This document shows, one piece after another, positions 43,396 through 48,648 of a stretch of 64,000 nucleotides of DNA; position 1 is the first letter of the stretch, and each line of letters starts with the position of its first letter. Made by a program: the position numbers and the translations under genes. The DNA lies in the NCBI RefSeq assembly GCF_034627025.1, contig NZ_CP141048.1, positions 2,926,001 to 2,990,000 on the forward strand, in the 5' to 3' direction. The stretch is from Microvirga lotononidis. GTDB taxonomy: Bacteria; Pseudomonadota; Alphaproteobacteria; Rhizobiales; Beijerinckiaceae. Below the pieces are notes generated by a model. The model did no database searches. It saw only the letters and a list, made by a program, of their open reading frames with translations, and was not told where the DNA came from.

Positions 43396-43667
43396 TCACC
43401 GAGAGGGCTCACACCCGTCACGGCATGGCCATCCCTGGATCGAGTCCGGGGACGGCCCTGGCGATTGTTTGAGGCATCGCGCTTCTCTACGCGAAATGAC
43501 TGGCACAGGAGCGGTGACGACATCGGAGAGTGAGGACGCGGGCGCTCATCCAATCGTTCAGTTCTAAACTATTTCCATCGACAAAAGGGCTCGTCCGCGC
43601 CAAGTTATCCCCCTATGGAGACGCCATCTCCCAGGACGCCAACCTCGCCCCGAAGCGGAGGACAACA

Positions 43668-45395
43668 ATGACCGTGTCGACCCCGGCCCCTGCCACGGCA
43701 GGCGCGACGGATCCCTATGCCGCCCGCCCCTGGCTCGTTTCCTACCCGGCGCAGGTGCCCAAGACGATCGACGAGTCCAGGATCGGCACGCTCAACGACA
43801 TCTTCCGCCAAGCCGTCACCGATTATCCGAACCGGGCCGCCGTCGAGAGTTTCGGCACGCGCATGACCTACGCGGCGCTGGGTCGCGAAGCCGATGCGGT
43901 CGCCTCCTGGCTTCAGGCCCAGGGGCTGAAGAAGGGCGACCGGGTGGCGATCATGCTGCCGAACGTGATGGCTTTTCCCCCGATCCTGTTCGGGGTGCTT
44001 CTGGCCGGCGGCACGGTGGTCAACGTCAACCCGCTCTATACCCCGCGGGAGCTGACCTACCAGCTCAAGGATTCCGGGGCGCGGTTCCTGTTCGTGCTCG
44101 AGAACTTCGCCGCGACCGTCGAGGAATCCCTGCCGGACCTGACGCTCGACCGAGTGGTCCTGGTCACGCCCGGCGATCTCCTGGGCCTCAAGGGGGCCGT
44201 CGTCAACCTGGTCTCGCGCCATGTAAAGAAGGCCGTGAAGCCCTTCAACCTGCCGCAGGCCGTCGCCTTCAGGGCCGTGATCGGCCAGGGAGGCAGGCAG
44301 AAGCCCCAAGCGGTGGCCGTGTCGCCCGACGACGTCGCCTTCCTGCAATATACGGGCGGCACCACGGGCATCGCCAAGGGCGCGACCCTGCTCCATCGCA
44401 ACGTGGCGGCCAACGTGCTCCAGTGCGAAGCCTGGATGCGGCCGTTCTTCGGCGATCGGGAGGACCACGTGATGGTCACGGCCCTGCCGCTCTATCACAT
44501 CTTCGCCCTCACGGTCTGCGCCATGCTGATGACGCGGATCGGCGGGTGCCAGCTCCTGATCGCCAACCCGCGCGACATTCCGGGTTTCGTCAAGACCCTG
44601 CAGAAGAGCCGGATCACTCTCATGTCCGGCCTCAACACCCTCTACAACGCGCTCGCCAACGCGCCCGGAATCGAGAAAGTCGATTTCTCCCAGATGGTCT
44701 TCTCCGTCTCCGGCGGCATGGCCACTCAGGAGGCCGTGGCGAAGAAGTGGAAGGCCGTGACCGGGCAGCCTATCGTCGAGGGCTACGGCCTGTCGGAGAC
44801 CTCGCCGGTGGTCTGCGCCAACAGGCTCGACATCGAGGAGTTCACCGGCACCATCGGCTATCCGCTGCCCTCGACGGATGTCTCCGTCCGCTCCAGCGAC
44901 GGAACGACCCTCCCGCCCGGCGAACGGGGAGAGCTCTGCGTGAAGGGACCTCAGGTCATGGCGGGCTACTGGCAGCGGCCCGACGAGACCGCGAAGGTCA
45001 TGACCGCCGACGGCTGGTTCCGGACCGGCGACGTGGCGGTGATGCTGCCCGACGGCCAGATCAAGATCGTCGACCGGATGAAGGACATGGTGCTCGTGTC
45101 GGGATTCAACGTCTATCCGAACGAAGTGGAGGACGTGATCGTCAAACATCCAGGCGTCATGGAAGCCGCTGTCATCGGCCTGCCGGACGAACATTCCGGC
45201 GAGGCGGTCGTGGCCTACGTGGTCCGCAGGAACCAGGCTCTCACGGTCGAGGAGCTGCGCGAATTCTGCCGGGAGAACCTCACCGGCTACAAGGTGCCGC
45301 GACGGATCGAATTCCGGGACACCCTGCCGAAGACCAATGTGGGCAAGGTCCTGCGTCGTGCCCTGAAGGAAGAAGTCGGGCAGGGCCGATCCTGA
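43668..45395 (+). CDS. fadD: Long-chain fatty acid-CoA ligase
   Basis: A 575-residue AMP-forming ligase that activates fatty acids to acyl-CoA. Motifs are FLQYTGGTTGIAKGATL (P-loop), VEGYGLSETSPV, GWFRTGDVAVML and, near the end, KVPRRIEFRDTLPKTNVGKVLRR with the catalytic Lys. The MTVSTPAPAT start at 43668, preceded by GCGGAGGA, is better than the frame's first start. No membrane signal is seen. No other beta-oxidation genes are adjacent. Confidence 0.9.
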   Translation: MTVSTPAPATAGATDPYAARPWLVSYPAQVPKTIDESRIGTLNDIFRQAVTDYPNRAAVESFGTRMTYAALGREADAVASWLQAQGLKKGDRVAIMLPNVMAFPPILFGVLLAGGTVVNVNPLYTPRELTYQLKDSGARFLFVLENFAATVEESLPDLTLDRVVLVTPGDLLGLKGAVVNLVSRHVKKAVKPFNLPQAVAFRAVIGQGGRQKPQAVAVSPDDVAFLQYTGGTTGIAKGATLLHRNVAANVLQCEAWMRPFFGDREDHVMVTALPLYHIFALTVCAMLMTRIGGCQLLIANPRDIPGFVKTLQKSRITLMSGLNTLYNALANAPGIEKVDFSQMVFSVSGGMATQEAVAKKWKAVTGQPIVEGYGLSETSPVVCANRLDIEEFTGTIGYPLPSTDVSVRSSDGTTLPPGERGELCVKGPQVMAGYWQRPDETAKVMTADGWFRTGDVAVMLPDGQIKIVDRMKDMVLVSGFNVYPNEVEDVIVKHPGVMEAAVIGLPDEHSGEAVVAYVVRRNQALTVEELREFCRENLTGYKVPRRIEFRDTLPKTNVGKVLRRALKEEVGQGRS

Positions 45396-45410
45396 TCGCG
45401 CCGCGAGGGC

Positions 45411-45438
45411 AAAAAAAAGCCGGGCGCGAAGCCCGGCT
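45411..45438 (-). terminator. Rho-independent terminator of the AbcR-like sRNA
   Basis: Read on the minus strand, an 8-bp GC stem (AGCCGGGC / GCCCGGCT) with a 5-base loop is followed by eight T residues. It is the most convincing intrinsic terminator in the window and points away from the LysR-type gene. Confidence 0.9.
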
Positions 45439-45552
45439 AAAGTAGAGGTCCGACAAAAGTCAAAACCTTCCAGAGGGAACGGCCGACACGGCAGCGCCGG
45501 GAGGAAGAAAAGCGGTGCCGCGTTGAAATCAGCCACGGGTGATATCGGCCGC
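45411..45552 (-). ncRNA. Probable AbcR/alpha-r15-family small RNA
   Basis: The gap between fadD and the LsrB/VtlR-like gene holds an RNA-like minus-strand unit. Stem-loop 1 (45486-45523) exposes CTTCCTCCC (45499-45507). A second pyrimidine-rich stretch, TTCCCTCTGG (45470-45479), follows, then the terminator hairpin and T8. Two anti-Shine-Dalgarno-like modules plus a terminator are the plan of AbcR sRNAs, which repress many ABC-transporter mRNAs through Hfq. From memory, in rhizobia the abcR genes lie beside lsrB, and VtlR/LsrB activates abcR. The 5' end is estimated; a promoter-like TGCATTGCAAATAGG lies just upstream at 45559-45573. Confidence 0.7.
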
Positions 45553-45666
45553 TGAGCGCCTATTTGCAATGCAGCATGCCTCATAAAAGGGCTGCACAAA
45601 GCGCATGGCTCGCGTCATCTGACCGACAAAATTGGAAGAGCTATCGAGCTTGGCGGGGGATTCGCG

Positions 45667-46557
45667 TCAGAAAGTCCAGCGCTGGGCCTTGGAAATGAGG
45701 AAGTCGCGGAAGGCCTGAACGCGGGCGACGGAGCGCATTTCCTCAGCATAAACCAGATAGCTGTCGAGGGATGGCATCTCCACGTCCCGCAGGATCTGAA
45801 TCAGGTCCGGGTTGCCGACCACCGCATAATCCGGCAGCACGGCGATGCCTGCCCCCGTCTCGACGGCGAGCTTCAGGGCCGTGATGTTGTTCACGACATA
45901 GTGATACTGCCGCGGTTCGCGCCCCTCGCGCCCGGCCGTCGAAAGCCAGTGCACGGCCATGAGGTAGGACGGCTGGTCGCCGCCGAAGGAGACGATCCGG
46001 TGCTCGTCCAGATCCTCCAGGGTCTTGGGCTCGCCGAAGCGCTTCAGGTAATCCGCCGAGGCATAGACGTGGAAATGCACCGTGAAGAGACGGCGCTGGA
46101 TCAGGTCGGGCTGGGCCGGGCGACGCAGGCGGATGGCCACATCGGCCTCGCGCATGGCAAGGTCCAGTTCCTCGTTGGACAGGATCAGCTCGACGCGGAC
46201 GTCCGGGTAGAGGTCGAGGAACTCGGCGATGCGCTGGGCGAGCCAGATGGAGCCCAGGCCGACCGTCGTCGTCACCTTCAGCTCGCCCGAAGGCCGCTCG
46301 CTGGTCTCGACGAGCCGCGCCTTGGTTGTTTCCAGCCGCATGCGCATGTCGCGGGCGGCCCTGAACAGCAGGTCGCCCTGCTCGGTCAGGATCAGGCCGC
46401 GGGCATGGCGGTGGAAGAGGGGAGCCCGCAATTCGCGCTCGAGGGCGCTGATCTGGCGGCTGACGGCAGATTGGCTCAAACCCAGATCGTCTCCGGCCCG
46501 GGTGAAGCTGCCCGCTTCAGCGACCGTATAGAAAATCCGGATTTTATCCCAGTCCAC
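45667..46557 (-). CDS. LysR-type regulator, LsrB/VtlR-like
   Basis: A 296-residue LysR regulator. The N-terminal helix-turn-helix reads AEAGSFTRAGDDLGLSQSAV, then LFHRHARGLILTEQG. The effector domain contains LILSNEELDLAMREADVAIRLRRP and ends with SVARVQAFRDFLISKAQRW. This resembles LsrB of Sinorhizobium and VtlR of Brucella closely as I remember them. Those regulators act in redox and envelope stress and activate AbcR sRNA genes. I prefer the GTG at 46557, preceded by GAGGGGAA, over an ATG 12 codons upstream. The trxB gene lies just upstream and the sRNA downstream. Confidence 0.88.
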   Translation of the reverse strand: MDWDKIRIFYTVAEAGSFTRAGDDLGLSQSAVSRQISALERELRAPLFHRHARGLILTEQGDLLFRAARDMRMRLETTKARLVETSERPSGELKVTTTVGLGSIWLAQRIAEFLDLYPDVRVELILSNEELDLAMREADVAIRLRRPAQPDLIQRRLFTVHFHVYASADYLKRFGEPKTLEDLDEHRIVSFGGDQPSYLMAVHWLSTAGREGREPRQYHYVVNNITALKLAVETGAGIAVLPDYAVVGNPDLIQILRDVEMPSLDSYLVYAEEMRSVARVQAFRDFLISKAQRWTF

Positions 46558-46672
46558 GGCATTCCCCTCATGCCTCGCATGCTCGTGACGCAAGGCAACT
46601 CTTATCTCTTATGAGCCGAGGGTCCGATGCAACAGGAAATCGGCCTGAGGACTAACCAGTTGTTAATAAACC

Positions 46673-48648
<1,976 letters not shown>

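Follow-up and report, generated by a model that had tools for sequence, protein, structure and literature searches.

What is encoded on the minus strand in the gap between a fadD-like gene and a LysR-type regulator gene of Microvirga lotononidis? The window analysed here, 64,000 nucleotides in all, is C1:2926001-2990000 of a 7.3-Mb genome of four contigs (G000), and a first-pass annotation of its letters had proposed that this gap holds an AbcR-type small RNA beside an LsrB/VtlR-like regulator. In related bacteria, AbcR turns down nutrient-uptake genes. We find that the unit is very probably a stand-alone gene for a trans-acting small RNA of the AbcR (alpha-r15) family; we read it as AbcR by descent, single at lsrB and dispersed over other replicons. 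Two parts are unusual, the spread of its copies and the cysteine-free LsrB next to it, and otherwise the unit adds to the known AbcR type. The AbcR-LsrB pair is thereby extended to Microvirga, some members of which were isolated from nodules, and the Rfam cut-off misses the form it takes there. Among the papers searched, none mentioned AbcR together with Microvirga, and those combining Microvirga with 'small RNA' concerned other subjects, judging by their titles and the first lines of their abstracts.

Architecture of the unit

The two motifs singled out in the first-pass annotation, CTTCCTCCC (45507-45499, minus strand) in a stem-loop and TTCCCTCTGG (45479-45470, minus strand) behind it, are confirmed at these coordinates, as is the terminator with eight Ts. 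In the given order and spacing the motif pair occurs once in the 64 kb and in 0 of 100 shuffles, and the predicted RNA folds at -51.3 kcal/mol (z -4.13), a value that none of 200 shuffles equalled. A fold of three hairpins, closing in the terminator, is present both in this prediction and in the alignment described below; CUUCCUCCC sits in the loop of hairpin 1 of the predicted minimum-free-energy (MFE) fold, and GUUCCCUC is single-stranded between hairpins 1 and 2 (SL1 and SL2). The predicted fold, backed by co-variation, thus shows both anti-Shine-Dalgarno (aSD) modules as unpaired. The features are collected in Table 1.

Table 1. Predicted features of the unit and its neighbouring genes, in window positions
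Feature	Position	Strand	Remark
trxB, thioredoxin reductase, upstream of lsrB	46673..47635	-	TIGR01292 417.9 bits (cut-off 343.45)
LysR-type regulator, LsrB/VtlR orthologue, cysteine-free	45667..46593	-	best PDB match 9HH1, E 8e-115
LsrB-like box ATGC-N7-GCAG-N7-ATGA	45581..45606	-	GCAG begins at -61; degenerate
-35 element ATTGCA	45565..45570	-	17 nt ahead of the -10 element; compared with S. meliloti CTTGAC-N17-CTATAT
-10 element CGATAT	45542..45547	-	conserved upstream block; spacing matches published PabcR1
AbcR-type small RNA gene, about 124 nt	45411..45536	-	predicted 5' end 45536-45534; 3' end within T run 45418-45411
Hairpin 1 (SL1), aSD1/M1 in loop	45481..45534	-	MFE fold; helices 1-3 with 91.8-100% of cells paired
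aSD1/M1 CUUCCUCCC	45499..45507	-	CCTCCC invariant across 41 aligned sequences
aSD2/M2 GUUCCCUCUGG	45470..45480	-	invariant across 41 sequences except one additional C in six
Hairpin 2 (SL2)	45443..45472	-	predicted fold; helix 4, 93.9% of cells paired
Intrinsic terminator	45411..45438	-	8-pair stem 45438-45418, then eight T to 45411
fadD-like acyl-CoA ligase, convergent neighbour	43530..45395	+	thought outside the unit

The 5' end of the RNA was derived from the position of the -10 element, and 45534 was used as the RNA start when box positions were counted. The covariance model R1, for which the window is one of 41 building sequences, places the RNA at 45534-45413, and the Rfam ar15 alignment of the window copy spans 45534-45415 end to end, with a score below the cut-off. 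The range first named for the element, 45411-45573, covers the RNA and the core promoter, but the upstream box reaches beyond it to 45606.

A generic sigma-70 scan of the locus found no promoter, and the promoter call is based on conservation and on the published spacing. According to the excerpt available of PMC8844928, the S. meliloti promoter PabcR1 consists of CTTGAC-N17-CTATAT with GCAT-N3-TG-N3-T at -61 to -49 and is bound by LsrB; the window promoter has the same spacing of 17 between its -35 and -10 elements, and its box, GCAGCCCTTTTAT, likewise starts at -61, where it fits five of the seven specified bases of the published consensus. Within 110-nt upstream regions, a relaxed form, GCA[TG]-N7-ATG, which was picked after the alignment had been inspected, is present at 37 of 41 lsrB-linked loci, all at -61 (0.38 expected), at 11 of the 19 ar15 hits found across the order, and at 17 of 20 dispersed copies, 16 of those at -61. 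It is absent from the four Salinarimonas-type loci and from the C2 copy of the M. lotononidis genome. The literal LsrB consensus occurs in none of the 41 upstream regions of Microvirga-clade lsrB-linked loci, in ten of the 19 order-wide hits and in one of the 20 dispersed copies.

Assignment to the AbcR family

At the Rfam gathering threshold the whole window gave no match. The search with the ar15/AbcR covariance model (RF02345), which had been suggested as a check on the first proposal, returned a full-length alignment, but at 23.4 bits (E 0.025 in 1 kb) the window copy lies under the gathering cut-off of 40, a score that is a detection threshold and not an anatomical feature. Because it falls below this curated cut-off, the ar15 match is not significant on its own. 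Its relatives extend the comparison: two of 17 related loci exceed the cut-off, both behind lsrB, in M. massiliensis (L069, 50.4 bits) and in an Enterovirga metagenome-assembled genome (MAG; L082, 42.0 bits), while the other 15, including the window, the C2 and C3 copies and the four Salinarimonas-type loci, fall below it, and 40 of 41 genomes in a further scan stayed below it. Of the seven ar15 matches in the 7.3-Mb genome, the top three are its three copies (27.3, 23.4 and 19.2 bits); in the background, the model has matches at E 1 in 4 of 14 control genomes and at E 10 in 12 of them. In the opposite direction, R1 detects a tandem abcR pair in another genome (G047) at 30.1 and 26.0 bits; this pair, which scores 127 and 119 bits with ar15, adjoins an LsrB gene whose product is 57.5% identical to the one in the window. 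Together with the orthology of the LsrB-like regulator, the relatives above the cut-off, the ranking of the three copies and the tandem-pair match support the proposal of an AbcR-type small RNA beside an LsrB/VtlR-like gene.

A draw of 120 genomes across the order gave ar15 matches at E ≤ 0.001 in 16, M. lotononidis not among them, and above the cut-off in four, against 0 of 14 controls; an LsrB homologue lies within 1.5 kb at 12 of the 19 ar15 loci. A draw within the family gave R1 matches at E 1e-6 in 27 of 99 genomes and 11 of 41 genera, and two of the matched genomes, from two other genera of the family (G159 and G225), carry tandem pairs.

Unit and family share much of their plan. AbcR1 and AbcR2 of Sinorhizobium, Agrobacterium and Brucella likewise have three hairpins, with aSD1 in hairpin 1 and aSD2 between hairpins 1 and 2, lie downstream of lsrB/vtlR with trxB on its far side, and have a sigma-70 promoter with 17 nt between -35 and -10 and a box for a LysR-type regulator about 60 nt upstream; in S. 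meliloti they are about 114-120 nt long, as far as the excerpted source goes. The window's aSD1 matches five of six bases of Brucella M1 (CUCCCG here, CUCCCA in Brucella) and seven of eight of the S. meliloti aSD1, and its M2 contains GUUCCC exactly as in the published Brucella M2. The differences are that the unit stands single at lsrB with extra copies scattered across replicons, that its M2, UUCCCUC, is one C short of UUCCCCUC, that its LsrB box is degenerate, and that its ar15 score is under the Rfam cut-off. A diverged ar15-like element in another Microvirga genome (L113:1499-1590; G024:C234), which scores 32 bits with ar15 versus 22.2 with R1, possibly represents a second AbcR subtype.

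A cysteine-free LsrB and its neighbourhood

The protein encoded by the adjoining LysR-type gene can be aligned with A. tumefaciens LsrB (9HH1) over nearly its full length and is up to 100% identical to Microvirga homologues; trxB lies upstream of its gene as in Agrobacterium. Where the A. tumefaciens protein has C144, C236, C244 and C273, the first and last of which are conserved in A. tumefaciens, S. meliloti and B. abortus, the window protein has valine at all four positions and contains no cysteine at all. Among 80 related LysR proteins, 73 have no cysteine and seven have one. A disulfide switch has been proposed for LsrB (PMC11975290, in the portion available); with zero cysteines, such a switch cannot form within the protein of the window. 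A cysteine-free LsrB would uncouple activation of the small RNA from redox sensing. The genome also encodes a second LsrB-like LysR protein (G000:C1:1309970-1310875), 66% identical to that of the window, and a second LsrB-like match is seen in other Microvirga genomes as well.

On the far side of the element, a FadD homologue lies downstream at 38 of the 44 loci that carry the motif pair (see below), in four of them 1.1-1.3 kb away; it was not found at L071, L083, L092 and L101, and L032 and L080 end too soon.

Conservation and co-variation

With at most one substitution allowed, GTTCCC and TCTGG occur together within 500 nt downstream of the LysR stop codon at 44 of 80 lsrB-like loci from named genomes: at 37 of 39 loci of the Microvirga set (L031-L069, being 38 labelled Microvirga and Rhizobiales bacterium YIM 77505), four of Salinarimonas or Salinarimonadaceae, and three of Enterovirga. 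The two loci of the Microvirga set without the motif pair have a run of N in one case and a contig end in the other. The contigs of this set overlap with the 25 Microvirga genomes (G000-G024) used for counting copies, so the two sets of counts are not independent. Methylobacterium accounts for 31 of the remaining 34 loci without the element; the other three are from MAGs labelled Methylobacteriaceae or Beijerinckiaceae. At one of the 34, in M. crusticola, a reduced, abcR-like remnant lies 858 nt downstream of the LysR stop (L072:3790-3894); in the sequence examined downstream of lsrB at the other 33, mostly Methylobacterium and with little such sequence at L074 and L107, CCC[CT]TCTGG was not found. 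Weak matches aside, R1 agrees with the presence and absence given by the motifs.

Under the fold of the window, 95.0% of the cells are paired in an alignment of 41 sequences (A1), from which we omitted a duplicate (L065), the loci with the run of N (L036) and the contig end (L044), and three loci with a shortened hairpin 1 (L071, L082 and L086). Ten pairs have changed on both sides, versus a mean of 2.0 in shuffles, none of which reached so high a count in 500; five of these lie among the eight pairs of the terminator stem (helix 5). The covariation score is 0.092 versus 0.014-0.051 for slid versions. The RNAalifold consensus retains little of the inner stem of hairpin 1, where distant rows are misaligned, and its covariation term is only -1.03; in a second alignment, of distant loci (A2), hairpin 1 is poorly aligned.

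The three Enterovirga loci omitted from A1 (L082:3979-4084, L071:3983-4096 and L086:3974-4088) retain aSD2, with one substitution in L086, while hairpin 1 is shortened and aSD1 weak or lost; the MAG among them (L082) exceeds the ar15 cut-off though its aSD1 module is not visible. The contig of Enterovirga aerilata (L071) also has a match to the terC RNA above that family's own cut-off (L071:311-371, minus strand).

Copies away from lsrB

The first-pass annotation had seen only one copy, where relatives often have a tandem pair. This holds for the window, and no tandem pair was found at lsrB in M. lotononidis, but not for the genome, where R1 finds two further strong copies, on C2 (106.2 bits) and C3 (98.8 bits), beside the one on C1 (138.1 bits). 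Between the three, 101-107 of 121 aligned RNA positions are identical, and the MFE folds of the C2 and C3 copies deviate from the consensus fold. The C2 copy (L157:5684-5809) lies downstream of genes of the peroxiredoxin-like and carboxymuconolactone-decarboxylase families, which resemble ahpC/ahpD (names given by eye). Two weaker matches were rejected as copies, one of R1 (C1:2870958, 24.4 bits), considered as a fourth, and one of ar15 (C1:1328094): each resembles a gene end with a similar terminator.

Across 25 Microvirga genomes we tallied by eye 55 copies (R1 matches of at least 55 bits), with at least two in 14 genomes and one in 11; comparison by eye placed a copy at lsrB in all 25. Microvirga sp. 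VF16 (G019, flagged as 18% contaminated) has ten copies, nine of them away from lsrB and eight of the ten on plasmids, and a further genome (G015, flagged as 7% contaminated) has five. Seven plasmid records contain the unit, all of Microvirga: three of VF16, three of M. ossetica and one of M. terrae. The plasmid units overlap no listed gene, in records of which three were opened and two of these have nearly empty gene tables. No LsrB-like LysR gene was found within the 6-12 kb fetched around 20 dispersed copies. Pfam searches of 19 of their 39 nearest neighbours, and of one further protein, left three without a family; the neighbours include three transposition proteins, a periplasmic binding protein, a transport permease, malate synthase, arginase and an aldehyde dehydrogenase.

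In Microvirga the additional genes do not form tandems with the lsrB-linked one; cassettes of promoter, RNA and terminator have been copied elsewhere, in VF16 mostly to plasmids. At least two alpha-r15 copies per genome, plasmids included, have been described before (PMC3712013, PMC7143759), so the spread seen here differs from the known cases in degree. If the dispersed copies are expressed, they would offer a natural test of why bacteria retain many sibling small RNAs. More speculatively, and with more doubt than confidence, Microvirga may have turned LsrB box, promoter, AbcR and terminator into a cassette, multiplied over megaplasmids in up to ten copies and driven in trans by a cysteine-free chromosomal LsrB. 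It would then act on nutrient uptake as a brake that copy number can tune and whose input is not thiol oxidation.

Other explanations of the hairpins

A different account takes the hairpins as no more than the tail of the lysR (lsrB) mRNA, its 3' untranslated region with the terminator, perhaps processed to a stable fragment. The unit is indeed co-directional with the LysR gene, lies about 130 nt past its stop codon and holds the stronger of two terminator-like sites in 45380-45680, and read-through from lysR may occur. However, M2 lies anywhere from 111 to 407 nt from the LysR stop across the 44 loci, whereas the spacing between box and RNA is constant in 37 of 41, and none of the 20 dispersed copies has such a LysR homologue in its 6-12 kb, while 17 of them keep the relaxed box. 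The unit is not merely the end of the LysR mRNA, because two copies in this genome and nine in VF16 stand apart from lsrB, and we consider this account improbable; the same copies contradict the outcome that the first-pass annotation had named as its refutation, a hairpin serving only as that mRNA's 3' end.

Judged by model scores, and for NfeR by the Rfam scan, membership in another CU-rich alphaproteobacterial family (SorX, CcsR or alpha-r14/NfeR) is less probable again. SorX (RF02784), whose host is Rhodobacter, shares a UCCCUC stretch and a GCCGGGC terminator with the unit and scores it higher than ar15 does (30.4 versus 23.4 bits), the window copy being its best match in the genome, and CcsR1 scores 17.7 bits over part of hairpin 1. 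We rejected SorX as the identity: the score is below that model's cut-off of 46.6, at E 10 the model finds 30 places scattered over the genome, several with its terminator part only, and it gives the C2 and C3 copies 13.7 and 19.5 bits, whereas with ar15 the three copies, and nothing else, take the top three ranks. Least probable of all, and highly unlikely, is a decaying, unexpressed abcR relic. The low ar15 score would suit it, as would the Methylobacterium loci examined, which lack the element apart from one remnant; the element is gone there, and therefore loss does occur nearby. Against it, both modules, the promoter block and the base pairs are retained across Microvirga.

Candidate targets and proposed mode of action

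Pairing of the aSD modules with the start regions of genes was compared between 72 of 86 binding-protein matches, those returned as loci, and 269 other genes, which came from a simple gene caller, may include transporters and have heuristic start codons. The binding-protein genes pair better with both aSD1 (p 1.7e-5) and aSD2 (p 3.2e-6), unevenly so, with p 0.28 for aSD1 and the PF00496 group. Their Shine-Dalgarno sequences are stronger as well (p 6e-11), and the enrichment at their start regions arises mostly because of these; after regression on Shine-Dalgarno strength, aSD2 keeps a small excess (p 0.017), with p 0.13 for aSD1. With 200 composition-matched shuffles per module, none separated the two groups as well as the true aSD2 did, and 16 did as well as aSD1. 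The 16S tail separates the two groups at 0.70, versus 0.67 and 0.66 for the aSD modules, and three other pieces of the RNA separate them poorly (0.40, 0.58 and 0.47). Judged by these pairings, binding-protein genes are plausible targets.

In the excerpts available of PMC8844928 and PMC5461406, AbcR is activated by LsrB, assisted by Hfq and acts with its aSD motifs on ribosome-binding sites, and by analogy the unit most likely acts as AbcR does. We infer transcription of the gene, binding and activation by LsrB, a role for Hfq and repression of transporters: LsrB from the neighbouring gene would activate the RNA gene via the box that starts at -61, and the RNA, probably working with Hfq, would pair through its aSD motifs with the ribosome-binding sites of mRNAs, many of them for ABC-importer binding proteins, with less translation as the result. 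Two hfq genes are present in the genome, at G000:C1:4272755-4272946 and G000:C3:316324-316512.
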